The position numbers and the translations under genes were made by a program. Of a DNA stretch of 64,000 nt, positions 30,824-48,969 are shown piece after piece; the stretch's first letter is position 1, and the number at the start of each line of letters is the position of its first letter. Source of the stretch: Phycisphaerales bacterium (GTDB lineage Bacteria > Planctomycetota > Phycisphaerae > Phycisphaerales > SM1A02); NCBI GenBank assembly GCA_029268515.1, contig JAQWNP010000001.1:124001-188000 (forward strand), in the 5' to 3' direction. Under the pieces are notes generated by a model, which saw only the letters and a program-made list of their open reading frames with translations, was not told the origin of the DNA and searched no databases.

Positions 30824-32127
30824 GCAGTCACGCTGGGCGACGATGGGGTACGCCGTCTCCATAACCACGCACATAACCGCGCTGAAAAAGCCAAGAGAAG
30901 TCCACCAGTCGCCTGATGAGCCGTCGTAATGGCCACTGTCAGCGGTGACATGGCTGCATCTTTACCCGTGCTGAGCACTGCGATCAGCGCTAAGATGCCG
31001 AACAAGATCTGTAAACCAAGAATACACAACACCAAGACACCCGCTCGTTGGATAACGCGCTCATCACGGTTTTGTGTAATCGCAACGCCGCCCGTGATAA
31101 TCACGAGCAGCAACACGAGCACCGCGAGAACAATATGTAACTGCAAGAGGCCGTTGACACCTGCAGCCTCTATACCCATCGGCCATTTATAATGGCGATA
31201 GGCCGAGCCAATCGCAATTTGCGCGAGAACTCCAATAACGAGCCAGGCCCCTAACCAGCTCCCTGTGCTCTGTGTCTCCTCACGCGGTACCGCTTTCCAT
31301 CGCGTATGCATAAATACGCCAAACAAGGCTGAAAACGCGAAGACGACTTGACCAAACACTCCATGAACGGCAGCCAACGCAATACTGTTCTCAGTCACCC
31401 GGGTGCCTCCGAGTGTTCCTTGTATGAGTAGCAGCACGATAAAGACGCCCGCCACTACGACAAGCCAAGGTCGACGATCAAGACGCATCACGGCAAAGAA
31501 GAAGATGAGTGCCGTGAGGCCGACAAGCATTCCATAGAGACGGTGCGCGTGCTCAAAGTACACGCCATCAGTCATCTCACTGAGTGGGTAAAGGAGCATG
31601 TTGTGGCCAAAAGTATTGGGCCAATCTGGCACCGCCATGCCAACCTGAAGGCCAGTCACCAACCCGCCAACAATGAGCATAAAAAACACCATCCCAAAGA
31701 TGACATTGCCCAGAATACATCGCCAATTGATTTGTAGTGATCTGGTATTTCTTGTCAGTGCACTTGCGACCAAAGCGCCAAGTCCACAAAGAAAAACGCT
31801 CACGCCATACACACCAAGCGCCCATAGCACAGCATCACCGGTCATCTGAGCGGCATCCTCACTGCCACCGACAACTGCACCAATCAACAACATGTTGATA
31901 CTTGCACAGATCAGGCCAGCCCCAACGCCACCCTTCCACCCACCTCCGGTAAAACCAATAACACCGCCACCAACGACCAACACCAGCAGCGTAAGGGCAA
32001 AGAGGACCTCTCCCAGAGCCAAGCCCACCTGCATGAACGCAATGAACGCAAAAACCCACATGGCTGTGGTCATAGCCAAGCCAATGGCAAGGGTCCGTCC
32101 TGGCTGTTTTTGAGCCTGATTGACCAT
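30820..32127 (-). CDS. ctaA: Heme A synthase (COX15/CtaA) with extra N-terminal membrane segments
   Basis: Oxidises the C8 methyl of heme O to a formyl group, giving heme A for the neighbouring caa3 oxidase. About 435 aa with roughly 12 membrane segments. The conserved core shows GGLVTGLQVGMAVPDWPNTFG, FEHAHRLYGMLVGL with the heme-ligand His, LAAVHGVFGQ, LQLHIVLA and TAHQATGGLLLA, matching the paired-His pattern of CtaA. Four additional N-terminal membrane segments (about residues 10-130) precede the core. The ATG at 32127 is preferred to an in-frame TTG two codons upstream. It is divergent from ctaB; both heme genes therefore share one upstream region. Confidence 0.92.
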   Translation of the reverse strand: MVNQAQKQPGRTLAIGLAMTTAMWVFAFIAFMQVGLALGEVLFALTLLVLVVGGGVIGFTGGGWKGGVGAGLICASINMLLIGAVVGGSEDAAQMTGDAVLWALGVYGVSVFLCGLGALVASALTRNTRSLQINWRCILGNVIFGMVFFMLIVGGLVTGLQVGMAVPDWPNTFGHNMLLYPLSEMTDGVYFEHAHRLYGMLVGLTALIFFFAVMRLDRRPWLVVVAGVFIVLLLIQGTLGGTRVTENSIALAAVHGVFGQVVFAFSALFGVFMHTRWKAVPREETQSTGSWLGAWLVIGVLAQIAIGSAYRHYKWPMGIEAAGVNGLLQLHIVLAVLVLLLVIITGGVAITQNRDERVIQRAGVLVLCILGLQILFGILALIAVLSTGKDAAMSPLTVAITTAHQATGGLLLAFSARLCAWLWRRRTPSSPSVTA

Positions 32128-32302
32128 CTTCAACTCACTACATTTTGCATCATTTAGGACTTCGCACGCTATACTGAGGGATCTGATCCGGGTTTGAGTA
32201 TTTTAGCCTAGTAATCAATTCCTTTCCTTGGGCAATGCTTTGCACGGATCTTTTCTCCCGCATGGAAACAGGTTCTTAACATCGACCGGGATTTTTACAC
32301 TG

Positions 32303-33328
32303 ATGTGCGCAATGAGCACTCCTATCTCCGACGAGGCCACGACGACGGCCTCAGAGGCCACCGCCAGCAAAAAAAGTCTGCCGGCGCTCTACTGTGACCT
32401 CACCAAAGCCCGACTCACCTCACTGGTGTTGCTGACCACTTTTGTTGGTTTCTTTATCGGTAGCTCTACGACCATCGATTGGCTTGTTCTCTTATGGACA
32501 CTCATAGGCACAGCGCTCTCAGCAGCGTCCGCCTCAGCACTCAATCAACTGATGGAAGCCACCTTGGATAGCCGGATGCAGCGGACTCAGGAAAGGCCAA
32601 TTCCATCTGGTGCAATGGGGCGTGTGCATGCTTTCATTGCAGGCATGTTGATGGGATATGTTGGCCTCGCCATCCTTGCCCTTTTGGTCAACTTACTGGC
32701 CTCAGGCTTGGCACTCGCCACAATTGTCTTATACGTCCTGGTCTATACACCACTCAAGACCCGAAGCACGCTCAACACCCTGATTGGAGCCATCTGTGGA
32801 GCATTACCCCCACTGATTGGTTGGGTTGCAGCCACCGGCACCCTGTCCGGAGGCGGCTGGCTCTTAGCAGCCATTCTGTTTGTGTGGCAGTTACCACACT
32901 TCTTTGCGCTCGCTTGGATGTACCGCGAAGACTATCGACGCGGCGGTTTCAAAATGCTGCCTGTTGTCGATGAAACCGGACGACTGACCAGCGAGACCAT
33001 TGTGATTACGAGCCTCTGCCTCATTCCACTGGGACTATTGGTCTGCGCAGCAGGTCTTGCCGGTGAGATTTTTGCAATTGGTGCCGTGCTCTTAGGTGGC
33101 TGGTTCAGTTATCGAGGCATGCAGCTCTACCGTCGCCGAACTGACGAAAATGCAAAAAGAGTCTTTATGGCAAGCCTTTTGTATCTCACCGTCCTTCTTG
33201 TTCTTCTCGTGATCGATCGGCACCCCTATAGTCCCTTGGACGCCTTCGTAGCACAACAAAGAGATGCTCCAACTGCGAGCTTTGAAACAGCACATCCAGA
33301 TATCATCACCAACCCTTCCGCACAATGA
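32303..33328 (+). CDS. ctaB: Protoheme IX farnesyltransferase (heme O synthase)
   Basis: UbiA-family prenyltransferase converting heme B to heme O, the precursor used by CtaA. About 341 aa with nine membrane segments. The first Asp-rich motif is NQLMEATLDSRMQRTQERPIPSG and the second region is YREDYRRGGFKMLPVVD, both characteristic of CyoE/CtaB. KARLTSLVLLTTFVGF marks the first membrane segment. Start could be the ATG at 32303 or 32312; the longer open frame to 32228 is not supported. Its stop overlaps the start of the DUF3179 gene as ATGA. Position next to ctaA and opposite the oxidase operon fits heme supply for the A-type oxidase. Confidence 0.95.
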   Translation: MCAMSTPISDEATTTASEATASKKSLPALYCDLTKARLTSLVLLTTFVGFFIGSSTTIDWLVLLWTLIGTALSAASASALNQLMEATLDSRMQRTQERPIPSGAMGRVHAFIAGMLMGYVGLAILALLVNLLASGLALATIVLYVLVYTPLKTRSTLNTLIGAICGALPPLIGWVAATGTLSGGGWLLAAILFVWQLPHFFALAWMYREDYRRGGFKMLPVVDETGRLTSETIVITSLCLIPLGLLVCAAGLAGEIFAIGAVLLGGWFSYRGMQLYRRRTDENAKRVFMASLLYLTVLLVLLVIDRHPYSPLDAFVAQQRDAPTASFETAHPDIITNPSAQ

Positions 33329-34470
33329 ATCAATCAACTGACGACAACCAACCTCAACGGCCCCAAAAAATGCTCACTGTCGCTGGCGGTGGATGGGTCA
33401 TTCTTCTTGCAATAGCGTTGTGCCTTGGCGCCGCTCTTTGGCTGGCTACTCCGGCTCTCCTACGTGGCATGGACCCTCCTTTAGGTGATGGAATCAATCC
33501 TGAGAGTTACGGTTTTGATCTATCTCTGGTCAATGGTGATCGAGATGCATTGACTGCTGGCATGCGCTATCGAGATATGGTGCACCCACTAACGATGCCA
33601 CCTCGTCTATCCGTAGATGAGGTCAATGCCAAAACCGGCCGCAAAAAATACATGGTGCCCTCGGACTTGGTCATCGGCGTGGCAGTCGGCGACGAAGCCC
33701 GTGCCTATCCCCTTCACGTTCTCAACGTACATGAAATCGTAAACGATACTGTTGGCAACAAGCCTATCGCGGTCACCTACCACTGGCCTTCAGGTGGAAT
33801 CCGTGTCTTCGAACGCACAATGAATGAACAGATACTCGAGCTCGGGGTCAGCGGCCTGCTGTATAACGGCAATGCTGTTTACTACGACCGCAAGCGTGAT
33901 GACATGCCCACAACTCAGCCCAGCCTTTGGAATCAACTCGAAGGAACGCCATTAGCCGGCCCCGCAGCCCAGTCACAACAAACGCTCAATACCTACCCCA
34001 CGCAGTTGACCACCTGGGCGTCTTGGCTTGCAGCTCACCCCGAGACAACGGTCATTGATAGAGATCCAACCTATGCACGGGTATACAAGAAGTCGAACCC
34101 ACAAACAGGAGATCCTTCGTACTTCACCAGCAACGTGCTTCCCAATGGCACAGCACTCTCGCACACACCTGATGCAGATAGTGCCCCGTTTAAAGAACGA
34201 GTTATCGTTGTGACTGATCGCAACAACAAACGCTACGTCTATCCCTACAATCTTATCGCCGCGCAAGTCGATGGCGATGGCAACTGGATAGACGAAACAT
34301 CAGGGCAACCGATTCGTTTTTCATATGTTCAAGATCCTGAGCATGTGTCTGCCGTCTATACCGACAGCAACTTGCCCATTAATGCGCCTTATAGTTTCTG
34401 GTTTGCTTGGCATGCCCTTCACCCTAAAGATGAGCTTATGACCATGCCAAAGACAGACAAGTCAGACTAA
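33325..34470 (+). CDS. DUF3179 domain-containing membrane-anchored protein
   Basis: Function unknown. The 381-aa protein has one N-terminal membrane anchor (about 21-43) and an exported DUF3179 domain. Family landmarks seen: VIGVAVGDEARAYPLHVLNVHEIVND, NKPIAVTY, SGLLYNGNAVYYDRK, SLWNQLEGTPLAG, LTTWASWLAAHPETTV and the terminal YSFWFAWHALHP. In most family members the segment after AVTY is a CPL(C/T)G motif; here it is HWPSGG, with no cysteine. Translation is coupled to ctaB by ATGA, and the stop overlaps the terminal stop of the oxidase operon. The location suggests a link to oxidase or heme/copper assembly, but this is inference. Confidence 0.82.
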   Translation: MNQSTDDNQPQRPQKMLTVAGGGWVILLAIALCLGAALWLATPALLRGMDPPLGDGINPESYGFDLSLVNGDRDALTAGMRYRDMVHPLTMPPRLSVDEVNAKTGRKKYMVPSDLVIGVAVGDEARAYPLHVLNVHEIVNDTVGNKPIAVTYHWPSGGIRVFERTMNEQILELGVSGLLYNGNAVYYDRKRDDMPTTQPSLWNQLEGTPLAGPAAQSQQTLNTYPTQLTTWASWLAAHPETTVIDRDPTYARVYKKSNPQTGDPSYFTSNVLPNGTALSHTPDADSAPFKERVIVVTDRNNKRYVYPYNLIAAQVDGDGNWIDETSGQPIRFSYVQDPEHVSAVYTDSNLPINAPYSFWFAWHALHPKDELMTMPKTDKSD

Positions 34471-35111
34471 ATCGCAAAGACCATTACCAAAAGCAAGATG
34501 ATCCAAACGACATCGAGGAAGTGCCAGTACATGGCACAGCCCTGAATGACGCCTCGGCTCACATGATGCGCCCCAGCCTTCGCCGCCATCAAGAGCACCA
34601 CGCCCACTGCGACAAGTCCACCAATGACATGCACTGCATGGATGCCTGTCAGCATATAGAAGCCTGCAGCCGCCACACGCGGCACTCCATTCTGATTCCA
34701 CAAGCTGGCGACAGCATCGTGCCACTGAAACCAAGCAGCTGCTTGAATCAAAACAAAGAGCACACCCAATAGCCCCGTCATACCAATCAGTGCCATGGCG
34801 CCTCTGACTTGATCACGCCGATACATCACGACTGCAAAATGGACAGTGCCACTTCCAATGATAAGTACGGCCGTTGAAATCCATAACATCCATGGCACCG
34901 CAGGAAGCGTTGCTGGCCAAAGTTCACCGGCCTGAAATCGAAGCACCAGAAAGGCAACCAAGGTCGCTGCAAATAAGGCACCCAGTGATATAAGAAACAG
35001 CATTAGGCCAAAGCGACCTGCACCAAGACGATCGGCCGTTGTTTGAAACGGTGTTCTTGAGTTGCGTTGAACTCGATCAACTGGAAGCGAATTACCCGTA
35101 GGAGGGGTCAT
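34467..35111 (-). CDS. Second cytochrome c oxidase subunit III-like protein
   Basis: Heme-copper oxidase subunit III family protein of 214 aa with five to six membrane segments. RFGLMLFLISLGALFAATLVAF resembles the first helix of CyoC/CtaE, FYMLTGIHAVHVIGG is the diagnostic conserved helix, and the C-terminal AMYWHFLDVVWIILLLVMV matches the WHF.D.VW signature. It starts within the ATGA overlap after the subunit IV gene and is the last gene of the operon. It is distinct from the larger subunit III encoded upstream; it may be an accessory or a split subunit. Confidence 0.88.
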   Translation of the reverse strand: MTPPTGNSLPVDRVQRNSRTPFQTTADRLGAGRFGLMLFLISLGALFAATLVAFLVLRFQAGELWPATLPAVPWMLWISTAVLIIGSGTVHFAVVMYRRDQVRGAMALIGMTGLLGVLFVLIQAAAWFQWHDAVASLWNQNGVPRVAAAGFYMLTGIHAVHVIGGLVAVGVVLLMAAKAGAHHVSRGVIQGCAMYWHFLDVVWIILLLVMVFAI

Positions 35112-35530
35112 TTGGGAAGTCCGAGTTCCGTCAGTCGATCTTGGATAACCGACGAGTCATTCTGATCAACAAGCGTCTGATATTCTTTCGTATCTGTTAT
35201 CGCAAACCCAATGAATAACGCCAGGAGGATCACTGAAGTAATAAAAATAAAGGACACGAACGGACGATCCCACCTCAAGTGCATGAAGTAGAGGCAGACA
35301 ATAGAAGCCTTAACAGTTGCAATAATCAGGGCAAGCAACAAGTTCATTTCAGGCATATGCCATTCATTGAAGTCGATAAAGCTTGAGAACACGGTTACAC
35401 CGGTAAGAAGAAGCAGAATCGCACAGATAAACGCAAGAAACCACATAGGCACTGCATGGCCGATACCGGCGTGTTCATGCGCCTTTGGATGGTGGTGTTC
35501 GATATTTGCTTCTGTGTGCTCGTGCGACAT
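35108..35530 (-). CDS. ctaF: Cytochrome c oxidase subunit IV
   Basis: Small three-helix oxidase subunit of the prokaryotic COX4 family, 140 aa. The N-terminus is His-rich (MSHEHTEANIEHHHPKAHEH), then membrane helices at about 29-50, 62-82 (LLLALIIATVKASIVCLYFMHL) and 91-112. The KASIV..YFMHL segment is the family signature. A hydrophilic tail follows. Spacing is 25 bp after ctaE and a 4-bp ATGA overlap with the next gene. Its exact role in the enzyme is structural and not catalytic. Confidence 0.88.
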   Translation of the reverse strand: MSHEHTEANIEHHHPKAHEHAGIGHAVPMWFLAFICAILLLLTGVTVFSSFIDFNEWHMPEMNLLLALIIATVKASIVCLYFMHLRWDRPFVSFIFITSVILLALFIGFAITDTKEYQTLVDQNDSSVIQDRLTELGLPK

Positions 35531-35555: not shown

Positions 35556-36572
35556 TCAGATGAGATAGAAAAGTGGGAACAAGAATATCCAGATTAAATC
35601 AACGACGTGCCAGTACAACCCACCGCAATCCACGGGCGTGTAGTACTGCCTATTGAACCGACCACGCAAGGTCAGATAGATCAACCAAAGAATGACGATG
35701 ATGCCAACCACAACATGGATTCCATGAAGGCCGGTCATCAAGAAGTAGATGGTGAAAAACTTCTGAGCATTGGGCGGGCGATCAGGATCTTGAAGTGGAT
35801 GCTTTTGAAGCTCCTGCATTGCCTCTTCAGGATTGTCTGCATAAGCAGCCATCGCCGCCTGGTCTTGTTGGGCTGCGATACGCCCTTCCTTATAGAAGAC
35901 TCGATAGGTTTCTTCTTCTTGAACAACCTTGCTTTGATTGAGCCCACTGGGACCAATTGCTGCTGGCTCGTTGGCACTGGCCTCGGATGGCGGAAGCGAA
36001 GGCAGATCTGCTCGGGCCTCTATCAGAGCCGCTTCTTGCTGCGACTCTGTGACATCCATCGTTGCAGCCATGGCTTGGTCTTGATCTGCTTGTTCTTGGA
36101 TCTCAACCCAAATGTGTGAATCCGCAGGCTTGTCATAGAAAGCCATTCCTGGCAAGAGGCCTTCATGAATTTTATGACTGTACTCTACGTACTTAATAGC
36201 CAAGAACCCAAAGGCGCCCAAAAGTGTGAGCACCAAACAGATAAAAAGCCCGGGCTTATTGCCGCGCTGCGCCATTGTCACACCCATAGCCATGGTCATG
36301 CTACTGAGCAAAAGGACGCACGTATTAATAGCACCCCATTTGACTGACAGGTACTGACTTCCATAAGCAAAGATATCGGGGTGATTGCCCCGCCAAATTG
36401 CGTAGCCGCAGAAGAGACCGCCAAAGAGCAAAATTTCAGTTGCCAGGAACAACCACATCCCAAGCTTGCCGGCTTCGAACTGCTGGGTCATATTGTCCCA
36501 GTGATGTCCAAGCTCCTTGGGATGGTCATGATGCGCATCATGATGATCATGCTCTACAGGGATCTGGGTCAC
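35556..36572 (-). CDS. ctaE: Cytochrome c oxidase subunit III with large hydrophilic insertion
   Basis: Subunit III of the caa3-type oxidase, 338 aa against about 200 for bacterial relatives of this type. The N-terminus is strongly His/Asp-rich ([20 protein letters not shown]). Helices begin at [23 protein letters not shown]-like and [16 protein letters not shown] segments close the protein. An insertion of roughly 120 residues (about 145-268), rich in Ala, Gln, Glu and Asp, separates the third and fourth helices. The start is GTG at 36572, overlapping the ctaD stop as GTGA. No frame disruption is seen, so the insertion is part of the protein. Confidence 0.93.
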
Positions 36573-38311
36573 GCGTGACCTTCCTTTCCTGCATCAATGC
36601 TACCAGGACGTTCAATATCATCTCGCCATTTGTAGCCTTGCTCCGACTCATCCCACTCAAGGACACTGAAATCGTAGCAATCACCCACAGTCGGAGCCTC
36701 TTTGAAGTTGTCGTGTGGTGGCGGTGATGTGCACTGCCACTCCAAGCTGCGGCCGCCCCAAGGATTGGAAGGCGCTCGCTTTCCGGCGAAGAGCGAGTAG
36801 AGCAAATAGCCAGCCGTCACAAAGAAGCCAATGGCCAACACATATGAACCAAGTGTTGAGATCACATGATAACGGTGATAAAGATCTGTCTGGACTAAGC
36901 CGTCATAGGTTGCATAGCGACGCGGCATCCCCTGACTTCCAAGAGCAAACTGCGTAAAGAAAGTCACGTTGAAACCAATAAAGACCAATGCAAATGCGAA
37001 GCGGCCCCAGTTTTCACTGTACATGCGACCGGTCATTTTCGGCCACCAGTGGTGCATTCCACCAATCATTGCAATGAGGGCCGAACCCATCATGACATAA
37101 TGGAAGTGTGCAACCACAAAGTATGTGTCATGCAGGTGAATGTCTGTAGCCAGCGTTCCCAAGTGAAGTCCTGTCAGACCACCAATTGCAAAGATCACAA
37201 TAAACCCGAGCGCATAGAGCATCGGCGTATTAAGACTAATCGATCCTCTGTACAACGTAGCCAGCCAGTTAAAGATCTTGATCGCTGACGGAATCGAAAC
37301 GCTAAACGTAATCGCTGAGAATACGACATTGATTAACTGAGACTGCCCAGATGTAAACATGTGGTGACCCCACACGAGAAATCCGAACAACGCAATGGCA
37401 ATTGAACTAAACGCAATAAAGCGATATCCAAAGATGTGCTTATGACTATGAACAGAAATCAGCTCACTGATAATGCCCATGGCAGGCAGAATCATAATGT
37501 ACACCGCGGGGTGTGAATAGAACCAGAAGAAGTGCTGATAGAGAACAGGGTCGCCGCCGAGTGCAGGGTTAAAGAAACCCATTCCAAACAGACGTTCCAT
37601 GAAGAGCAGCGCAACAGTAATTCCAAGGACGGGTGTCGCGAGCACCTGAATCAGTGCTGTTGCATATAACGCCCAAAGGAATAGAGGCATCCTAAACCAC
37701 GTCATCCCAGGTGGTCGCAGACGATGAATTGTCACAATGAAATTCATGCCTGTAAAGATCGAGCTGAATCCGAGAATGAAAACACCAATCACTGCCCAAA
37801 GCACGCCGCCAAAAGCCATTCCATCTGTCGTGCTATAAGGCGTGTAGAAGGTCCATCCAGTATCAAGACCACCATCAACGTTAACCAAGACCATGATAAA
37901 AAAGACCGCTCCAGCCATCCAAAGCCAAAAGCTAAAGAGATTCAGTCTTGGGAATGCGACGTCCTTAGCGCCCAACATAATAGGGAGCACGAAATTACCT
38001 AGTGCAGCTGGCACACTCGGAATAATCACGAGGAATACCATGATCGCGCCATGCAAGGTGAACGCGCGGTTGTAATTGGCGTTATCACTAAAGACAGCAC
38101 CTTCAGGCGAGAGCAACTGTGTTCGGACAAGAAGCGCAAAAATACCACCAACGAAGAACATGCCCAACACACCACAGAGATACATCACGCCAATTCTTTT
38201 GTGATCGAGTGTAAAGAGCCAACTCCAGAAACCGCGCGTGTAGGTGAGATAATTATCTCTTGCGAGCTCTGGTGCTACTGGTGGGGTTGGTGGTACAGGA
38301 ATGGTGGTCAT
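36569..38311 (-). CDS. ctaD: Cytochrome c oxidase subunit I (A2-type heme-copper oxidase)
   Basis: Catalytic subunit holding low-spin heme a and the heme a3-CuB centre; pumps protons while reducing oxygen. The 580-aa protein has 12 main helices. Visible ligands: [10 protein letters not shown] (heme a His), the CuB/Tyr motif [19 protein letters not shown] preceded by WGHHMF (CuB His pair), and [15 protein letters not shown] (heme His). The D-channel Glu of HPEVY enzymes is replaced by YSHPAVY, which defines the A2 subtype known from Thermus and Rhodothermus caa3 oxidases. It lies 4 bp after ctaC. ctaA and ctaB close by supply heme A. Confidence 0.97.
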
Positions 38312-38315
38312 CGCA

Positions 38316-39497
38316 CTAGGCCTCTGGGGTCCCTCCGTCTTGATTTGCTGTTTGTACCTCTTCGGGTTCCGCTTCCTCTGGAGGTGCTAGATTTTCCGGC
38401 GCAGGCTTGACGGATCCATCAGCTTCAAAGTAGGTGTCGAGGTCACGGAGCATCATAATCAACGCATCGACCTGGCGATCCTTTAGTTGCCCCTTGAAAC
38501 TTGGCATCACAGGACCATAGCCCTCATTAATAAGTTTCTGTGGGTAGAGGATCGATTCACGAATGTAATTTTGCACACCACCCATGTCAGGGTCATAAAA
38601 ACCATCGCCTTGCTTTTGCAACTGTGACATGACCGCACCGTTTGTAAACCTCTGCTCACCGGCTTGCGTACGTTCCCACAGCCCCTTAAAGGTCGGGCCA
38701 GTATTCGGATCCCCGTTGACACTATGACATGATGCACAGCGTGGGTAGAGCTTATCCGCTGCATAGTAGCCAAGCGCTTCTGTCGGCAAGTCCATATATT
38801 CCTGAGCCAACCTCGCAATTTCAATCTGAAACTCTTCCTCAGGAAGAACGAAAACGCGCGCTGACATATCAGAATGTCCCTTGCCGCAATATTCGGAGCA
38901 CAACAACTGGAACTCGCCCGGTTTTGTTGCCGTGAACCAGAGCGTTCGATAACGACCCGGCACCACATCATTTTTGACTCTAAATGCTGGAATGAAAACT
39001 GAGTGCAACACATCTGAGGATGTCATAATGAACTGCACCGGTCGATCCATAGGAAGCGTTACCTGATCACCCTCAACAGCGCCATTGGGATGCTGGAAAG
39101 TCCAAGACCATACCTGGCCATTGACACGTACCTCATAGGCATTTTCCGGCACCGTATCAAGATACATGTAACCGGTCATACCCATATAGAACATCACAAC
39201 GACAATCAGTAGCGGGACAATTGTCCAGGTCACTTCAAGTGCTGTGTGGTGCGTTACTTCTTCACCCTCACGCGTATGGCTTCGCCGTCTGTAAACGATT
39301 GAGAAGACAACGGTCAGAATGAGAATCGCAGCAAAGAAGATATAGCAAATGACATTAATGAACTCAAAGAGCCAATCTATCTTTGGTGCGACTTCAGAGG
39401 CTTGCTCGGGCATCCAATAAGTGGCGCCGCCCGACGCAGTCGTTCCGATTGCGCTCAGTACTTCTAGCTGAATGATGTCGGCAACAAGTGAAATCAC
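38316..39497 (-). CDS. ctaC: Cytochrome c oxidase subunit II with fused cytochrome c (caa3 type)
   Basis: Electron entry subunit of 393 aa. Two membrane helices (about 45-68 and 88-110) are followed by the periplasmic cupredoxin domain with [19 protein letters not shown] and the CuA site [14 protein letters not shown]-terminal cytochrome c domain carries [10 protein letters not shown] with a distal Met in GPVMPSFKG. The fused cytochrome allows direct transfer from ACIII. The tail is Pro/Glu-rich. Start is GTG at 39497, overlapping the SCO stop as GTGA. No classical lipobox is apparent. Confidence 0.96.
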
Positions 39498-40438
39498 GTC
39501 ACACCACCTTGTGAGGTCTCACCTGAGCCGTTAAAGGCGTCCATTTGTTTTGATGCAGGACGATCTATACCTCTGACCGATGGCTGGCTCGCAGGAGACC
39601 CCTGATTGCCACCACCATTATTTTTTGCGGGGCCAATGAGCTTGAGAATAAACAAGCCAATGAGAATCAGCACAACAGTGACAACGCCACCAATTTTAAC
39701 TGCTGCCATTGCGCTAAACTTATAACTCTTGCTATCTGGATCATAGTAAAAGCAACGCAGTGCCATTCGCTCGAATGGAGATCCGATAGCGCCTTCGGAC
39801 GACTCAATCAACGCCAACTTGGTGTCGCGAGGATCAAACTCAATATCATTGAAATACCGACTCACTCGACCAGATGGCGTAACGAACTGAATACTGGAAG
39901 CATGGGCATACTCACCGCTTGATTCGTCATAGCGATACCCAAAGCCAATAGAATTGGCCAGCGTTTCAATTTCTGATTGATTACCAGTCAAGAAGTGCCA
40001 ACCCTTATCGACACCTTCTCGGTCATAAAAACTAAGGTAGTGACGCTTCTTCACCTGCGCGAGCTCTGGCTCCTCATTCGGATCGATACTGACAGTCACA
40101 ATCTCGAATTCGTTGCCTGCAGTCCAATCAAGTTTATTCAAAGACTTAACGAGACCATTAAGGGTGAGCGTACAGAGCATGGGACATCGGTAATAATTGA
40201 GCGTCAAGATGACGGGCCTACCCGGCTTAAAGTAATCACCAAGCTTGACCTTTTTGCCATGCTCATCGACAAATTCAAGATCAAGAGGCAACTGCGCATC
40301 GAGCTTTTCGACCACACCAACGCCTTCGAACTCAACTGGATTATCGTCGGCAGCATATTGGGCAGTAGCGCGCGTTGAAACAACTGCACAAACCAGCAGT
40401 CCAAACGCGATCAGATTTGATATTCGCCACTTACTCAT
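39494..40438 (-). CDS. SCO1/SenC-type copper chaperone for oxidase assembly
   Basis: Thioredoxin-fold protein expected to deliver copper to the CuA site of subunit II. The 314-aa form starts with a signal peptide (MSKWRISNLIAFGLLVCAVVSTRATA). The copper-binding CxxxC is in YYRCPMLCTLTL, with VTVSIDPNEEP and LTGNQSEI matching the fold, and a downstream His in EYAHASS is the likely third ligand. Unusually there is also a C-terminal membrane helix (about 268-290, VVTVVLILIGLFILKLIG) and a Gly/Asn-rich tail. The longer open frame to 40567 overlaps the preceding gene; the ATG at 40438 is in an ATGA overlap with it and begins the signal peptide. Confidence 0.9.
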   Translation of the reverse strand: MSKWRISNLIAFGLLVCAVVSTRATAQYAADDNPVEFEGVGVVEKLDAQLPLDLEFVDEHGKKVKLGDYFKPGRPVILTLNYYRCPMLCTLTLNGLVKSLNKLDWTAGNEFEIVTVSIDPNEEPELAQVKKRHYLSFYDREGVDKGWHFLTGNQSEIETLANSIGFGYRYDESSGEYAHASSIQFVTPSGRVSRYFNDIEFDPRDTKLALIESSEGAIGSPFERMALRCFYYDPDSKSYKFSAMAAVKIGGVVTVVLILIGLFILKLIGPAKNNGGGNQGSPASQPSVRGIDRPASKQMDAFNGSGETSQGGVT

Positions 40439-40812
40439 TGGGTGTTCTGTGTGCCCTTCGCTGCATCTGCTAATCCATACTGTTGAACAATCGTGCCAAT
40501 CGCATGACCGATTGGAACTTCTAAACGCTGCTGCTGCTGATCCTGAGCGTCGGTGTACTCCACCCAACGCGCATCCTGATTTCTAAGAAAAGCCTGGGCT
40601 TCAATAACCACCTGTCGATCTTGATTCTCAATACTCTCCACTTTGCCACCGAACTCCACCCGATCAACCTGGTAGAACAGCGCCGTAAGCGCCAAGAACA
40701 CGGCAATAAAGATCACACAAGAACACACGCCGATGATCCAAAGTGGACCAGCAGTGGGATCTTCATGATCCTCTTTATTGTGCTCGATGTTGTGATGGGT
40801 ATGAATGCTCAC
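40435..40812 (-). CDS. Small membrane protein of unknown function in ACIII-caa3 operon
   Basis: Not recognised. The 125-aa product has a His-rich N-terminus (MSIHTHHNIEHNKEDHEDP), one membrane helix (about 25-47, LWIIGVCSCVIFIAVFLALTA) and a hydrophilic domain with DRQVVIEAQAFLRNQDARWVEYTD that probably faces the periplasm. Length, position between actF and the SCO gene, and tight coupling on the downstream side (ATGA with SCO) suggest an assembly or accessory subunit. The start appears to be GTG at 40812, 15 bp after the actF stop. Homologues at the same position in related planctomycetes would support a structural role. Confidence 0.7.
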   Translation of the reverse strand: MSIHTHHNIEHNKEDHEDPTAGPLWIIGVCSCVIFIAVFLALTALFYQVDRVEFGGKVESIENQDRQVVIEAQAFLRNQDARWVEYTDAQDQQQQRLEVPIGHAIGTIVQQYGLADAAKGTQNTQ

Positions 40813-40827
40813 AAATAACTCTTTTAT

Positions 40828-42267
40828 CTACATGTTCTCAAAGTGAATTGAATCGGGTAACCATGGATCACGAATTGGTATCAAAGCGCAGTTTCGAAGA
40901 CGATAGATTGTGCCAGCAACCATCAGGCAAACCATGCCGCCTAATAAAGTAAAGTTAACAACGTGCCAACCGTAGCCCGTGGAGATCGTTCCATCGTTGA
41001 CTGCTGCCACGAGTTGGTCGTATTCCACCACTTTGGCCATTGCATAACCCGCCTCTTCCATTTGAGGCATCACAAGCCAATAAATATCGAGGAAGAACAT
41101 CAACAACATCCAGCAGGCCAACAGGGTCATGGCCGCAGGCTGTCTCTTGGGATGCTTTGAAACCAAAATAATGAATGGCACCAGGAAGTGCCCCAGTAGT
41201 AAAACCATCGTCACCCAGAACCATGGGCCAATTTGGCGAACCAGGAAAAAGTCCGTCTCAATCGGAATGTTGGCGTACCAAATCAGCATGTACTGACTGT
41301 AGGCAATGTAAGCCCAGAAGACGATGCCAAATGCAAAGAGAAGCTTGCCCATATCCTGCCAATGCTCGTGGGAAATCTCTTTCTTAACATGACCAGTCTG
41401 CTGCAGTACAAAGACTAAAATTATTAAGAAACTAAAAAATCCACAACAAGTAGCTGCAAAGAAGTAGACACCCCACATGGTTGAGAACCACTCGGGGTTC
41501 AGGGACATCATCCAATCAACCGCTGCAAAAGTTGAAGTCAGGGCGTACAAAATCAGCCCCACTGGTGCACCGCGCTGAAGTCGCCTCGACCAGTGACGCT
41601 CACCATCAGCATCCTGCCGGACCGAGTTTGAAAACAAAAACCAGGCGAGTCCACCCCAAACAACAAAGTAGATCACCGAACGGATCAACCAGAAGGGCAC
41701 ATTCAGATACGCCATCTTCTTCTCAATCAAGCTATGCCCGTGGGCCCCACCATGTCCGCTGTCATCACTATGGGCCCCACCATGTCCGCTGTCATCACTA
41801 TGGGCCACTGCTGCTGTTCCATCAGCATCTGCCAATGCAACCATCTGAACATTCACATCGGAACTGTCCATTCCGGCGTGTTGTGCTTGAATCGCAGCAA
41901 CCTCCCCCACCCATTTATAGATCAGTTCACCATGGCCGCTGACCATGAGAACCCAAAGTGGGATGAACAACACCCAGAGCCAGACGAAATTAGATGCCAC
42001 AGCCTCAGCAAGGCGCCGAATAACGACGCTCCAACTTGCACGCGTCATGTGATGCAACAAGCTGAAGAAAAGGCCACCCAGCGATATCGAAACAATGACG
42101 ATAAAAGCAAACATATATGACCGCCAGAAAACTTCTCCGTCGGTGAAGAAGATGCCTGCCAGAATGCTGACCACCATGCACGCGATGCCAATAAGGCCAA
42201 AGGCCCAGAACATTTTGCGCCCGACAGGGCCGAGATAGCGAGCATCACTAGGCTGATGGGCCGTCAT
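40828..42267 (-). CDS. actF: Alternative complex III subunit ActF
   Basis: Membrane subunit of the quinol:cytochrome c/oxidase oxidoreductase, related to ActC/NrfD but lacking a clear second quinone role. 479 aa with about ten membrane helices (for example MFWAFGLIGIACMVVSILAGIFF and WMMSLNPEWFSTMWGVYFF, the latter typical of ActF). Between helices three and four there is a soluble loop containing a duplicated HSDDSGHGGA unit (residues 156-179) encoded by a 30-bp perfect tandem repeat. Its ATG overlaps the actE stop as ATGA. Order actABCDEF matches known ACIII loci. Confidence 0.92.
   Translation of the reverse strand: MTAHQPSDARYLGPVGRKMFWAFGLIGIACMVVSILAGIFFTDGEVFWRSYMFAFIVIVSISLGGLFFSLLHHMTRASWSVVIRRLAEAVASNFVWLWVLFIPLWVLMVSGHGELIYKWVGEVAAIQAQHAGMDSSDVNVQMVALADADGTAAVAHSDDSGHGGAHSDDSGHGGAHGHSLIEKKMAYLNVPFWLIRSVIYFVVWGGLAWFLFSNSVRQDADGERHWSRRLQRGAPVGLILYALTSTFAAVDWMMSLNPEWFSTMWGVYFFAATCCGFFSFLIILVFVLQQTGHVKKEISHEHWQDMGKLLFAFGIVFWAYIAYSQYMLIWYANIPIETDFFLVRQIGPWFWVTMVLLLGHFLVPFIILVSKHPKRQPAAMTLLACWMLLMFFLDIYWLVMPQMEEAGYAMAKVVEYDQLVAAVNDGTISTGYGWHVVNFTLLGGMVCLMVAGTIYRLRNCALIPIRDPWLPDSIHFENM
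41741..41800. repeat. Perfect 30-bp tandem repeat (2 copies) inside actF
   Basis: Two identical 30-bp units at 41741-41770 and 41771-41800, continuing for seven more bases. Each encodes ten residues of the His/Asp/Gly-rich loop, so the repeat stays in frame. The lack of any mismatch suggests a recent duplication. Confidence 0.95.
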
Positions 42268-43007
42268 GGTGTTGCCTCCGAATCCGTGTCGGCCTGGTCA
42301 GCAGATGGTTCTTCGACGATACGTGGTAGCGAGTCGGCATCAGGCACTGTCGCTGGATCTGCATTACGACTCTCTTGCAGCGCCTTAATGTAAGAAACGA
42401 TCGCCCAACGGTCATCGATGGCAATCTGATCTCCATAACCCGACATGTTTCTAACACCATTGGTAATCGTATTGAAGACTTGCCCAAGAGGCTGTTCAAC
42501 AATTTGAGGTTCATGAATATTCTTGGCTTGAACCCAAGTCGTACCTGTTGGAAGCCCACGTTCGAGCAACTGCATGGCTCTTTGATTAATAATGCCATCA
42601 CCTACACCTGTAGGGCCATGGCATGGCATGCAGTAAATCTCGAATCGTTCTTGGCCACGTAGAACAAAGTCAGTTGTAATTTTGATCTGCTCTGGGAATT
42701 CTACGGCCCACGCACCATCAACCACACCCATGGCGTAATGGGTATCGTCAACCATATCGCCTTGGGCAATTGCTCCCGGGACGACTGGTCGCATTGAGCG
42801 GCCATCATTGAAAAGCAAATTGGGTTGCTGCCCGACATACTTTGGCTGGTTATCCATGTTTTGAATAATGTGGATACGCGGATGCTGTTTAGGAACAATA
42901 CGAGCTCGCGCAATCAAAGCCGGCGGTATGAGTGCCAGTATACCGATCACAATGAGCGCATATTTGATCCAACGAGGAACCACGGGCTTAGGCCTCCAAC
43001 CAATCAA
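42264..43007 (-). CDS. actE: Alternative complex III subunit ActE, monoheme cytochrome c
   Basis: Membrane-anchored periplasmic cytochrome c of 247 aa. One N-terminal helix (about 14-31, IKYALIVIGILALIPPALI) is followed by a cytochrome c domain with the single heme site YCMPCHGPTGVGDG and a candidate Met ligand in VRNMSGYGDQI. The C-terminus is Asp/Glu/Pro-rich. It lies between ActD and ActF in the standard order. The apparent start is TTG at 43007, overlapping actD by 20 bp; no ATG is available before the membrane helix, so a non-ATG start is needed. Confidence 0.92.
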   Translation of the reverse strand: MIGWRPKPVVPRWIKYALIVIGILALIPPALIARARIVPKQHPRIHIIQNMDNQPKYVGQQPNLLFNDGRSMRPVVPGAIAQGDMVDDTHYAMGVVDGAWAVEFPEQIKITTDFVLRGQERFEIYCMPCHGPTGVGDGIINQRAMQLLERGLPTGTTWVQAKNIHEPQIVEQPLGQVFNTITNGVRNMSGYGDQIAIDDRWAIVSYIKALQESRNADPATVPDADSLPRIVEEPSADQADTDSEATP

Positions 43008-43605
43008 TGACTTCAGGATCTAGGGTCTTTAGAAATGCTTCTGTTTCACCACGCACATACTTCGGATCGCGTGTTTCAATAACAACAAAAAATCGGTCAT
43101 CAGAAAGACGCATCAAACGCGGATGTCTAAACACGGGATGATAAAGACGAGGAAGGCCATTCATCACAAACATGGCGCCGACCGCCGTCAGACATGCGAA
43201 GAGAATCGTCATTTCAAATGCCACAGGAACGAAAGCTGGTGCACTGACCAATGGCTTACCACTCACCTCAAACTGATAACCACTCACAGGCACAAGTAAC
43301 CAAAGCGGTAGCTCAAGTGAATTTGTGTAGACCTGGAGGAATATGGCAACCAGGGTTCCTGTCAGACCTGCGAAGAAGACAATAATGGGCAAGATCGTCG
43401 GTTTTATTCCCATCGCTTTATCGAGGCCATGGACAGGGAATGGAACCAGACAATCCCACCATCGGTATCCAGCAGCGTGAACAGCCTTTGCTGCCTCATA
43501 TATTTTTGCCGTCGACGTAAACTCTGCAAAGACGCCATAGGGCCGTTCAGTGCTTTCAACCTCATCGCTGACGGGCTCATTCGTCGTCATGGTCAAATCT
43601 GTCAT
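42988..43605 (-). CDS. actD: Alternative complex III subunit ActD (DUF3341)
   Basis: Integral membrane protein of 205 aa with two helices (about 72-92 and 128-150), belonging to the DUF3341 family found only in ACIII-like complexes. Typical residues are YGVFAEF at the start, the [13 protein letters not shown] motif and DRFFVVIE near the end. A strong Shine-Dalgarno AAGGAGGTG lies upstream of the ATG, which also overlaps the actC stop as ATGA. It has no cofactor and is thought to be structural. Confidence 0.95.
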
Positions 43606-45053
43606 GAAGCCACCTCCTTCGATTCCGAGGAAGCATGATCATCATGATGTGCATGTGGATCCGCCTGCGGCATAGTGGCCTTGATTTCAGAAATCGCAAT
43701 CACCGGCAGGTAACGAATAAACAACAGGAAGAGCGTCATAAACAGGCCGAAACTTCCTATGAACATGGCGATGTCAACCCATGTTGGCGAGAAGTATCGC
43801 CAAATACTGGGAATCTGAGGCTCAGCTAATGAGGTGATCACAATCACAAATCGCTCAAACCACATACCGACGTTCACCAGAAGCGACGCAATAAAGACAA
43901 TCCAGATGGAACGACGGCACACCTTAAACCAGAAGATCTGAGGCGTAATAACATTGCAAGAAACCATAATCCAATAAGCCCACGCGTATTGGCCGAATGC
44001 ACGATTCACAAATGCGAAGGTTTCCATCAATTCGCCTGAATACCAAGCGATGAAGAATTCCATGCCATAGGCGTAGCCAACCATTGACCCGGTCAGCAGC
44101 ACAATCTTGCACATATTCTCAATGTGTCGTTTTGTAATGAAGTCCTTCAGGCCCCAGAGCTCACGAGCAGGAATCGCCAAGGTCAGGACCATACCGAATC
44201 CACTGAAAATGGCACCGGCGACAAAGTAAGGCGGGAAAATTGTCGTATGCCAACCTGGTAACTGACTGACCGCAAAGTCGAATGAAACGACCGAGTGGAC
44301 GGAAAGAACCAATGGAGTGGCCATTGCAGCAAGCAGTAAATAACATCGTTCATAACGATGCCAGTGCCGCATACTGCCTCGCCACCCCAAAGAAAAGATG
44401 CCATAAAGAACTGACTTGAGCTTCGTTGTCGTTCGGTCGCGTAGCGTCGCCAGATCGGGCACCATGCCGACATACCAGAAGATCAACGAAACAGTGAAAT
44501 AGGTGCCAACCGCGAACACATCCCACAAGAGTGGACTACGAAACTGTGGCCACATAGACATTTGGTTGGGAATTGGGAACAACCAGTAGGCCAACCAAAC
44601 ACGGCCAATGTGAATGCCCGGATAGAGACCGGCACAAACCACTGCAAAGATCGTCATCGCTTCTGCAAAACGATTGATTGATGTACGCCACTTCTGGCGG
44701 AATAGGAACAAGACAGCAGAAATGAGTGTGCCTGCATGGCCAATACCAACCCAGAACACAAAGTTAACAATCGGGAATCCCCAGGCCACTGGAACATTGT
44801 TGCCCCAAACACCAACGCCGGTCAGAAAGAGGTATCCAACCAAGACCATCAACATCGAGGCCAACGCAGCTGAAATGACAAAGGTGATATACCAGGCCAA
44901 CGGTGGCCTTGGCGCCTCATTAACCGCACAGATGTCTGATGTCACAGAGGTAAACGAGTCGTGGTTCAATACCAAAGGCGCGCGAACACCGGGTTCATCG
45001 AATGTGTTACTCGAATCGCTTACGCGTGGCTTGCCAGCAGACAACGTACTCAT
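43602..45053 (-). CDS. actC: Alternative complex III subunit ActC (NrfD/PsrC-like, quinol-binding)
   Basis: Polytopic membrane subunit of 483 aa with about ten helices, homologous to PsrC/NrfD. It carries the proposed quinol site and proton path of ACIII. Recognisable segments are [48 protein letters not shown] and [22 protein letters not shown] split across helices. The C-terminus is His/Asp-rich ([14 protein letters not shown]). The start ATG sits in an ATGA overlap with actB. Confidence 0.95.
43611..43619 (-). promoter_or_regulatory. Strong ribosome binding site of actD
   Basis: AAGGAGGTG on the minus strand, 5 nt before the actD ATG and within the end of actC. It is the best match to the anti-Shine-Dalgarno in the operon and may raise ActD translation. 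Confidence 0.7.
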
Positions 45054-48000
45054 GCTGTGGGTGCCTCCCCAGCATGCTCCGTATGGCCTGGTTCAGCATG
45101 ACCATGAGCGCCATTTTCAGCCTCTGCCGTCAACGGATTTGTGACCTTGGCTAAATATTTAGTACGCGGGCGAATATTGATCTCCTCAAGCACCGAGTAA
45201 GACAACTTGAGATTCTGCTGACGAGCCACCTCACTGTTGGGGTCAAGCAAGTCACCAAATGTAATAGCGCCGGCTGGACATGCCTGGGCACAAGCAGGAA
45301 CAATGGTGCCATCTGGAATGGGAATACGATTCTGATTCGCGTTCAATTCTGGTGGCGGCTTAACCCAAGTGCGTGCTTGCTCTTCTTTTTCTGCCTTAGG
45401 CAGTTGCACCCATGCATTCTTAGCCTCAATCTTCGCCGCCTGAATACGCTGAGTGCAGTAGGTGCACTTCTCCATCACACCACGCATTCGCACCGTCACT
45501 TCCGGATTGAACTGCATACGCCGCAATGGATCTGCACCACTCTGACGCTTGATGTAGTAATCAGGATTGACGGCCAAGAAACCACCCTCTCGAGCGGGAT
45601 CGCGGCGGAAGTAGTCGAAGTAATTGAAACGCCGCACTTTGTACGGACAGTTATTGGAGCAATAACGCGTGCCCACACAACGGTTGTAGACCATGACGTT
45701 TAATCCGTCATTGTCATGCACGGTTGCAGCCACAGGACAAACCTGTTCACACGGCGCATTCTCACAATGCTGGCATGTCATCGGTTGTAGCGCCACTGAT
45801 GTCAGTTGCTCTGGGTCGTAGCTACCTGGGCTTGACTCGGCAAAGGTGTAATAGCGATCAACGCGAATCCAATGCATTTCCCGGCCGCGTATAATTTGAT
45901 CTTTGCCAACAATTGGCAAGTTGTTTTCTGCCTGGCAGGCCATCACACAAGTTCCGCAGCCCGTACAAGCATTCAGATCAATTGACATCGCCCATGCATA
46001 GTCAGCGCCATCAAATTGCCGCGGCTGCCAGAGATTGAGACTATGCACAACATGCGTGTCAGCATTCGCGAAGTTTGGATGCGCCTGGTAATCGGCCAGC
46101 TCCGTTTCGCGATAGAACATTGGAATGCGCTGCTGCTCACCTTTACCACCAACGGAATCAAGTGCGTAATGATTCTGAACCCGAGCGAGTGGATAGGTCT
46201 CATTGAGTGACTCCACCGTCACATTTGGAACTGACCACATGTTCTTCGTGGTTCGGAGTGGGTAGGCATTAAAGCCAGCATCTGTACTAATGCGTCCGGG
46301 GAAACTGCGCCCATAGCCCAGTGAAATCGACACCACATGTCGAGCTTGCCCTGGTTGCACGATGACAGGTGCAGTCATCGACGCGCCGTTGGCAGTAATC
46401 TTAACCATGGTTCCTTCAGCGAGGCCCTTCTCTTTGGCGAGCCACGGACTGATTAAGAGCGCGTTATCCCAAGTGAGTCGCGTAAGAGGATCAGGAAGCT
46501 CTTGCAACCAACCATTATTTGCATAGCGGCCATCATAGACCTTCGTGTCAGGCGTAAAGATAAGCTCTAACTGATCCTTCTTCGAAGGCTCTGCTAGCTT
46601 TGCCTGAACACCATCCATATTGACTTTAGGTGTACCGGTTTTGAACGCTGAATTGGCACGGTGCCCGTCGTACAACACCTTCCGCCAAGTTGGATCCCAA
46701 GTGGCATCATTCGTAGATGTACTCGTGTCCTGGCTCATCGTATTGCGAACAATGTCATAGCCAGCTGTTTTTGCTTCACCAGCGATCAATGCAAGCAATT
46801 CAATTGATGAGTGACCACCAAAAAGTGGCTCAATCAATGGTTGTTGAAATGTCACCGTACCGTCCCATGTACGACCATCACCCCATGACTCAAGATAGTG
46901 AGCGCGATTGAGGTGCCAGCTGCAAAGGACCGACGTTTCGTTTTCGTAATCCGATAGGTGGATTGATGTTTTGACTTTCTTGATCGCGTCAGCAAACTTT
47001 AAGTCTGCAGGTGCGTCATAAACTGGATTCCCGCCAAGGAGAACCAGAGTCGATACATCACCTTTATTCATTTGCTCTGCGAGCGATGCAATGTTTTCTG
47101 CATGTGCGCCGGATGAAGGCACCTGGGCATAACGTACCGTCTTGCCCACATTTCCCAGAGCTTCGTTGAGCCCATGAGCTAAACGGTGCACTGCTGGACC
47201 CTGGCCGGGCCCTGCAATAACGACACAGCGACCCTTATGAGCCATCAGATCATTGGCAACCTTTTCTGCAAAGCCACGTTGCTCATTGGTCTTCGCCAGT
47301 GATTCGATTTGATCGTGATCACTCGACTTCATTTTACCTGCCATAATCGCGTGACTTAGGCCAGCTGCGAATGTCTGCACATCGCCACGCCTCATCGCAA
47401 CACGGTCGTCAGCATTTGAACCCGTTAACGTCAGCGTCGGTTCAATAGTAATGAGTCGATTGATGGACTTCTGACCATCACGGACACGTCGACCAGCTGT
47501 GAAATCGCGAATGTTGCGAAGCTGGTCGGGGTAGACGCCGAGAATATCGGCATCGAGCGTCAGAATAACATCCGCATCCTTCAGGTCATAGACCGCGCGG
47601 AATGAACCATTCATCGCATCAGACGTGCCCATTGCCGGGCCATCATTATTAAGAGGCTCGTACTCACACCAACTCATGTTCGGATAGACCGACTCAAGCC
47701 GTGCCCGCATCGCCGCTACGCTCGGAGAGCTACTGGCTTCCGCGAGTACCGCAAAGCCCTGCCCCTTCTCACTTCGCACTGCACGGAAGTGCTTCGATGT
47801 GAAACGCTCAAAATCTTTCCATTGCTTCTCAGTCAGCTCTTCTGCTGTGCCGTAGGTAATACGTCGACTGCGATCTGGATCATAGAGATCAAGAATGCTG
47901 CCTTGTTCAAAGACACCAGAGGTACCCATATTTGATTCAACATTGGGATTGCCCTCAATCTTCGTGGGACGACCTTCAAAGCTCGTCACCATAAGACCGC

Positions 48001-48316
48001 CAGCGACGCCACCAAGCTCCATCGAAGTTGCATATCGTTCAGCAACACCGGGCGTTCGATCATTGGGTCGATGTGCATAAGGAACGATTTCTTCTTTCGG
48101 CCAACGCCGACAACCAGTGAGTCCAATACCGGCCATGGCCATTGAACCAGCCATCAACTTCAAGAAGCTACGACGATCGGCATCGGTCATGCCATCAAGT
48201 GCTGAGTCAGGAAACTCCATGTCAACGTATTGCTGGAACTCCGGTGAGCCCGAGAGCTCATCGAGGCTACGCCAATAGGCTCGGCCGGTTTGTTTGTTTT
48301 TTACTACCGGTGACAT
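45050..48316 (-). CDS. actB: Alternative complex III subunit ActB (molybdopterin-like plus Fe-S domains)
   Basis: Large peripheral subunit of 1088 aa fusing a cofactor-free molybdopterin-oxidoreductase-like domain with a ferredoxin-like iron-sulfur domain. A twin-arginine-type signal sits internally ([11 protein letters not shown], about residue 47), preceded by a 40-residue hydrophilic leader. Cys clusters in the C-terminal quarter are [55 protein letters not shown] and [11 protein letters not shown], fitting four Fe-S clusters. The C-terminus is His-rich ([17 protein letters not shown]). The start overlaps actA by 13 bp. Length is typical of ActB. Confidence 0.96.
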
Positions 48317-48969
48317 GTGGAGCAGTCCTGCGATGGTTGGAGCATATTAACTTCACGCCACTTGGCGCCGTTCTGACGTTTTTCTTGAGCGGTAAGGCTC
48401 AACCCCCACCAAAGTTGTGTCACAAGATCTGGATCGCGTAGATGGGGATCTGGATCTCTATGACAGTCCAAACACCACTTCATGCTTAGTGTTTCTCTTT
48501 GCGAAACAACTGTCATGGTGTCAACTCGGCCGTGACACTCCACACAACTGACGCCACGATTCACATGCGCGGCATGGTTGAAATAGGCATAGTCAGGCAG
48601 ATCATGTACCCGAACCCAATGCACCGGAAGACCGGTTCGGTAGCTCTCCCACAGTGGCTTAAGATCTTCTGAGTCTTTATGGATCTGCGTATGGCAGTTC
48701 ATGCATGTCTGGGTTGGTGGGATATTCGCATGCGCTGTGTACTCAACCGTATTGTGGCAGTAGCGACAGTCCATACCGAGCTGTCCAGCATGCACGCGAT
48801 GACTAAATGGTATTGGCTGAGTGGGTTGGTACCCAATATCCGTTGTCTTGGGGCTAAACCCAAAGGCAACAATAAGTGCGACATACAATGGGACAGTTGC
48901 TCCCGCCACGACCAGTGACGGAAGTAGAAGATTGGCCCACCTTGGAAAAACGTAGCGGTAGCGGGGCAT
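48304..48969 (-). CDS. actA: Alternative complex III subunit ActA, pentaheme cytochrome c
   Basis: First gene of the ACIII operon; periplasmic multiheme cytochrome anchored by one N-terminal helix (about 14-34). In 221 aa it has exactly five CxxCH sites: CRYCH, CMNCH, CVECH, CLDCH and CSTCH, the number expected for ActA. FSHRVHAGQLGMDC and YFNHAAHVNRGVSC carry distal His ligands. It passes electrons from ActB/quinol toward cytochrome acceptors and, here, probably the caa3 subunit II. Starts at ATG 48969, divergent from tatD with a 212-bp gap that should hold the operon promoter. Confidence 0.96.
   Translation of the reverse strand: MPRYRYVFPRWANLLLPSLVVAGATVPLYVALIVAFGFSPKTTDIGYQPTQPIPFSHRVHAGQLGMDCRYCHNTVEYTAHANIPPTQTCMNCHTQIHKDSEDLKPLWESYRTGLPVHWVRVHDLPDYAYFNHAAHVNRGVSCVECHGRVDTMTVVSQRETLSMKWCLDCHRDPDPHLRDPDLVTQLWWGLSLTAQEKRQNGAKWREVNMLQPSQDCSTCHR

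Follow-up and report, generated by a model that had tools for sequence, protein, structure and literature searches.

The 125-residue reading frame that separates actF from the SCO gene in the window, a stretch of 64,000 nucleotides from a Phycisphaerales genome, most probably codes for a strongly diverged form of ActG, a small accessory subunit of alternative complex III (ACIII) that spans the membrane once. We base this identification on homology at the profile level, on the placement of the gene after actF, on its co-occurrence with ACIII genes, on the presence of a single transmembrane helix and on the absence of conserved Cys or His residues. The frame does not represent a separate family. 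ActG is already a named subunit, and the window gene is a new, diverged member.

The reading frame and its operon

The frame is part of an operon on the minus strand in which the genes have the following order:

48304..48969, minus strand: actA, multihaem cytochrome c (PF14522)
45050..48316, minus strand: actB, with FeS domains and a weak molybdopterin-binding match
43602..45053, minus strand: actC, NrfD-type (Pfam PF03916, E 1.9e-23)
42988..43605, minus strand: actD (Pfam PF11821 ActD, E 2.5e-57; in the PDB it also matches ActD chains, from four distinct ACIII sequences)
42264..43007, minus strand: actE, mono-haem cytochrome c (Pfam PF13442)
40828..42267, minus strand: actF, ACIII membrane subunit, named from its position and its homology across the compared loci (no Pfam match above cut-off)
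40435..40812, minus strand: putative gene for an ActG-like subunit with a single span (125 aa, GTG start)
39494..40438, minus strand: SCO1/SenC gene, ATG at 40438, 314 aa (Pfam PF02630, E 1.4e-11)
38316..39497, minus strand: coxB with a C-terminal cytochrome c, caa3 type (PF00116, PF02790, PF00034)
36569..38311, minus strand: coxA (PF00115)
35556..36572, minus strand: coxC with a long hydrophilic insert (PF00510)
35108..35530, minus strand: coxD, COX4_pro (PF03626)
34467..35111, minus strand: second COX3-like protein (PF00510)

The earlier note had placed a single-span protein of 125 residues exactly between actF and SCO, and this description is borne out by the coordinates, by the presence of one hydrophobic segment and by the signature of purifying selection (pN/pS 0.16). 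A gap of 15 nt separates the frame from the stop codon of actF, which ends at 40828. At its other end the stop codon overlaps the ATG of the SCO gene (40438) by 4 nt in the sequence ATGA (40435..40438, minus strand). Since the identical overlap is found at the locus of the closest relative (L025), a coupling of the frame to SCO translation appears reasonable. The proteins at these two loci share 78% of their amino acids, with a pN/pS of 0.16 at nearly saturated synonymous sites. The corresponding value for four neighbouring genes is 0.11-0.21, and thus the frame behaves as a conserved protein gene.

The protein consists of an acidic N-terminal tail ending in EDPxxGPxW, one transmembrane helix (about residues 25-48), a linker and a C-terminal element. 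The only strongly hydrophobic segment according to hydropathy covers about residues 26-45, and AlphaFold2 placed a helix at residues 24-49 in a model, built from the window protein and one relative, that was poor overall (pLDDT 56.6, pTM 0.22) and unsuited to structure comparison. The C-terminal element ends in VPIGHAIGTIV, where the family consensus reads IPIxxAMxxVV. The characterization as His-rich applies to the window protein, which has 6 His, 5 of them within its first 16 residues, and does not extend to the family. Indeed, the alignments of 23, 42 or 55 rows show no Cys or His in any column that is invariant or nearly so, and neither the His-rich tail nor the pair C30/C32 of the window protein is retained among the relatives. 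The only Met in an invariant or nearly invariant column is the start residue, and the window protein sequence lacks a CxxCH haem motif. A role in the delivery of copper or haem was rejected on account of the missing conserved ligands. In three relatives (L089, L078 and L050) the ActG-like protein carries a long low-complexity tail, rich in Pro, Ala and Glu, beyond the conserved core.

No Pfam or NCBIfam model was matched above its cut-off by the window protein, and any one family in these libraries reached at most 2 of the 23 or 1 of the 55 aligned members. PF02630 (SCO1/SenC) fits the neighbouring gene and not the frame. Weak matches, such as those to PF11044 (E 0.0098, not reaching its cut-off), to phrog_30401 of PHROGs (E 0.014) and, for a single member, to an FtsL model (E 1.3e-4), were regarded as noise caused by transmembrane composition.

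The surroundings of the frame show a few further features. A short in-frame repeat (DDSGHGGAH, two copies) is found at 41730-41805, inside a His-rich stretch of actF. By eye, CoxC (35556-36572) contains some 130 residues of hydrophilic sequence rich in Gln and Glu, and the Pfam COX3 model covers residues 272-336 only. A DUF3179 gene (PF11376) on the plus strand (33325-34470) runs towards the oxidase operon and meets it at its 3' end, and near it lies a ctaA-like gene (30820-32133) with a PF02628 score just below the cut-off.

Homology to ActG

The relation to ActG emerged from searches of 177,635 distinct PDB sequences. ActG is represented there by chain G of 8k9e, and the identical sequence occurs in 8k9f, 8x2j and 9ilt. 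Chain D of these four entries is homologous to the window ActD (E 3.8e-29), which identifies them as ACIII structures, and we take them to represent the complex of Chloroflexus aurantiacus. The C. aurantiacus ACIII structure of Xin and colleagues (Plant Cell, 2024) reportedly resolves ActG and credits it with the stability of the complex. ActD matches also mark 6lod, 6f0k and 6btm as ACIII structures, and in these three the profile and sequence searches found no ActG-like chain.

The searches were performed with profiles of increasing width. Profile A1 represents the window's own taxonomic family and comprises 23 of the 24 matches to the single sequence; the remaining one (L019) was added in A2, which has 42 rows. 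A5 has 55 rows, hand-picked as recognisable full-length members, with degenerate, truncated and redundant relatives left out. For one row (L049) the start was set at a GTG in A5, in place of the CTG used in A2 and A3. The ActG match strengthens with the width of the profile. With A1 it ranks seventh, below unrelated proteins (E 0.34), and with the others it is the best match in the PDB: E 0.0017 for A2 (runner-up 0.098), E 4.2e-4 for A3 (runner-up 0.13) and E 3.2e-7 for A5 (runner-up 0.01). The last value is not circular, because ActG itself is absent from every alignment. Two members, L052 (E 0.023) and L122 (E 3.5e-5), have ActG as their best PDB match when used as single sequences. The homology between the window protein and ActG therefore rests on intermediates, considering the E-value of A1. 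That the window protein belongs with these intermediates was shown by a profile made of the 46 rows of A5 from outside the window's taxonomic family: it ranked the frame first among the 1,218 reading frames of the window (E 9.8e-16, against 1.8 for the next best).

One could argue that the family is unrelated to ActG and has arrived by convergence at a short amphipathic motif. The narrower profiles (A1, A2 and A3) indeed align only about 20-44 C-terminal residues of ActG, and the closest relatives taken alone (A1) stay below significance. However, with A5 the alignment is colinear and covers most of the chain, from position 11 to 99 of the 105 profile positions and from residue 28 to 107 of the 112 residues of ActG, with transmembrane helix, linker and C-terminal IPIxxAMxxVV element following one another in the same order. 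Moreover, the gene occupies the same slot as actG. We consider convergence hardly credible. The claim of the earlier note that the protein matches no known family thus holds for Pfam and NCBIfam, which have no model for it, and fails at the profile level, where a family already known, ActG, is recovered (A5, E 3.2e-7).

Common to the window family and the ActG of 8K9E is a C-terminal element of the form '..L..Y....IPIxxAMxxVV..'. The Chloroflexus protein (chain G of 8K9E, 8K9F, 8X2J and 9ILT) resembles the window protein further in its size of about 110 residues, its one transmembrane helix and its linker. The window protein differs from it by an acidic, His-bearing N-terminal tail, by about 6-8 additional residues before the IPI motif, and by VPIGHAI where ActG has IPIDRAM. 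The genes for ActG in C. aurantiacus are Caur_0627 and Caur_2139. In Chloroflexus, actG follows actF in the Cp operon and precedes SCO1 and the cox genes in the respiratory Cr operon, so that the position after actF and/or just ahead of SCO1-cox resembles that in the window (PMC3150298).

In the study by Sousa et al. (2018), ActG of Rhodothermus marinus is a predicted ACIII subunit with one transmembrane helix, known by its mass fingerprint and without density in that structure (PMC5928083); the window protein resembles it in this description. The authors describe ActG as seemingly exclusive to ACIII, report that actG is missing from some act clusters and consider it probably non-essential for catalysis (PMC5928083). 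ActH of R. marinus is likewise an extra subunit beside ActA-F; in contrast to the window protein it is a peripheral three-helix bundle, reported by BLASTp to lack homologues among other prokaryotes (PMC5928083). According to a proteomics paper of 2022, ActG is specific to C. aurantiacus and absent from the ACIII of R. marinus (PMC9316378). Papers on Melioribacter (PMC3534657) and Nitrospirales (PMC12342949) report ActG as missing there. No report of ActG in planctomycetes was found in the literature, which was judged largely by title and with most subscription papers outside the search.

Occurrence and position in the phylum

A search of the contig collection with the window sequence alone gave one relative, the locus L025 mentioned above. 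A single-sequence search of 61 genomes, including the genome of the window itself, found a match in 24, in all cases (24/24) between actF and SCO. Profile A1 matches 83 genomes in a set of 392 from the window's phylum. The earlier note had suggested a search for homologues at the same position, and these were found consistently: in 83 of 83 genomes the match follows actF with no other profile match in between (L026-L055, 30 loci; L057-L109, 53 loci), at a distance of 3-407 nt from the actF match, and in 82 of the 83 it is followed by SCO. The exception is L094, where the match is broken by an in-frame stop and coxB comes next.

The distribution follows that of ACIII. The Pfam ActD model (PF11821) matches 217 of the 392 genomes, including all 83 with an A1 match, and A1 finds nothing in the 175 actD-negative genomes. 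A5 gave 127 matches in 123 of the 392 genomes, all of them actD-positive (123/123), where matches to its own, hand-picked rows are present by construction. Considering the 150 actD matches listed, 118 of the 127 A5 matches are located 1.6-3.1 kb downstream of actD on the same strand; for the other nine, some of which are weak and may be due to chance, actD lies on another contig or outside these 150. In four genomes with two actD clusters (G290, G384, G393 and G416) each cluster has its own family match, and both matches are among the 118. Further genomes in which actD is matched twice (e.g. G075, G156, G230 and G429) have one family match or none. Taken together, an A1 or A5 match is present in 125 of the 217 actD-positive genomes, and neither profile matches at E 0.001 in the other 92.

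From the 134 actD-positive loci without an A1 match, 40 were chosen for spread and not at random. An A2 match after actF is present in 28 of these, 23 times at an E-value up to 0.001 and five times weaker (L115, L126, L127, L146 and L149). None was found in the remaining 12 loci, which are of four kinds. In six (L117, L134, L139, L140, L142 and L145) SCO begins no more than 240 nt from the actF match, in two (L141 and L144) the contig ends in actF, and in two (L138 and L143) there is no SCO or cox match after actF. The last two, L111 and L130, have a small membrane reading frame that resembles the family by eye, and A5 finds a match at the expected place in the respective genomes (G050, E 4.0e-7; G324, E 8.6e-4). 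In four of the loci with SCO close behind actF (L117, L134, L140 and L142) coxA precedes coxB and no ActG-like gene can be detected; L139 and L145 end too early to establish the order of coxA and coxB. In several lineages, loss of the ActG-like gene may accompany a rearranged oxidase operon.

Homologues of ActG after actF are thus found in many genera of the phylum. The finding widens ActG and explains an unannotated gene for which Pfam and NCBIfam have no model. In addition, a model based on the IPIxxAM motif would let annotation pipelines name ActG and show its true spread in ACIII.

A probable subunit of ACIII and its proposed role

The earlier note had proposed a new assembly factor for either ACIII or the oxidase. 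The connection with ACIII is upheld; the oxidase part is disfavoured, because there is no conserved Cys or His and because the match is located after actF in the compared genomes where SCO and the cox genes have moved. A factor that assists SCO at the copper centres of the caa3 oxidase would be in line with the overlap of the gene with the SCO start codon and with SCO as next gene in 82 of the 83 phylum matches. Nevertheless, the Cys or His positions that such a factor might be expected to keep are neither invariant nor nearly so, and in the compared genomes the gene stays with ACIII when the clusters separate. In two genomes the SCO-coxB-coxA cluster is apart from ACIII, on another contig (G053) or 2.6 Mb away on the same contig (G399). 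The family match is found after actF in both, firmly in G053 (E 4e-4 at the locus, 1.4e-5 genome-wide) and weakly in G399 (E 0.05 at the locus, non-significant genome-wide). In contrast, the separate SCO-coxB-coxA cluster of either genome has no significant match in the surrounding 8 kb; the comparison concerns that cluster, and further SCO-domain places exist outside it. In G226 (L133) the gene follows actF upstream of an oxidase that by eye looks like the cbb3 type, while SCO and COX2 of this genome lie on different contigs, and at L128 and L094 coxB is next without an SCO match in between. The second COX2-COX1 cluster in the genome of the window (L150) also lacks a significant family match. 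These separated clusters, together with this second cluster and the position of actG in Chloroflexus, place the protein with ACIII, and the homology to ActG points in the same direction. Considering also the co-occurrence of A1 matches with actD, an ACIII subunit is favoured and we regard an oxidase assembly factor as very improbable. Against the reading as ActG count the 92 actD-positive genomes without a match, the non-significant score of A1 taken alone and the three ACIII structures in which no ActG-like chain was found.

The location of the gene at the boundary of the ACIII and oxidase genes might also suggest a linker that joins ACIII and the caa3 oxidase in a supercomplex and is not needed by ACIII itself. 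Supercomplexes of this type have been reported for R. marinus (PMC5928083) and F. johnsoniae (PMC8361435). However, at L112 and, weakly, at L115 the family match follows actF and no SCO or cox match occurs in the 3.6-3.8 kb beyond. Moreover, actG closes the photosynthetic Cp operon actABCDEFG of Chloroflexus, which is listed with no oxidase genes (PMC3150298). A mere linker is therefore improbable.

As an ActG, the protein would be a structural subunit with its helix packed on the membrane module formed by ActC, ActD and ActF. The C-terminal element, which is conserved over about 40 residues and closes with IPIxxAMxxVV, would dock on the complex at one face of the membrane and thereby help to assemble or stabilise ACIII, presumably with no role in electron transfer. 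The overlap with SCO would tie the synthesis of the last ACIII subunit to that of the first oxidase genes.

The distribution of charge gives a hint of the orientation. With flanks of 12 residues, Lys and Arg are more numerous after the helix than before it in 58 of 102 rows, less numerous in 11 and equal in 33; these related rows remained from 127 distinct ones after removal of short rows and of those with a too short N-terminal tail or weak hydropathy. When duplicate rows were retained and the flanks extended to 15 residues, a less strict count gave 104 higher and 11 lower among 132. The C-terminal element may thus face the cytoplasm (N-out, C-in), as a suggestion only. A more far-reaching possibility, which we consider speculative and rather unlikely, is that ActG, far from being a sporadic addition, is old and vertically kept in most ACIII, and was overlooked because only its short C-terminal element (IPIxxAMxxVV) is conserved. 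This element may then dock on the cytoplasmic face of ActC, ActD and ActF and could act there as a gate or seal for the proposed proton path, which would make ActG a functional and not merely a stabilising subunit.

The second COX2-COX1 cluster of the window genome (G000:C11:56000-73000) is accompanied by a cytochrome b gene (PF00033) and reading frames with CxxCH motifs. A bc-type complex III may therefore be present besides ACIII; a survey of Phycisphaerae, however, describes Phycisphaerales as having ACIII and lacking bc1 (PMC11266412).
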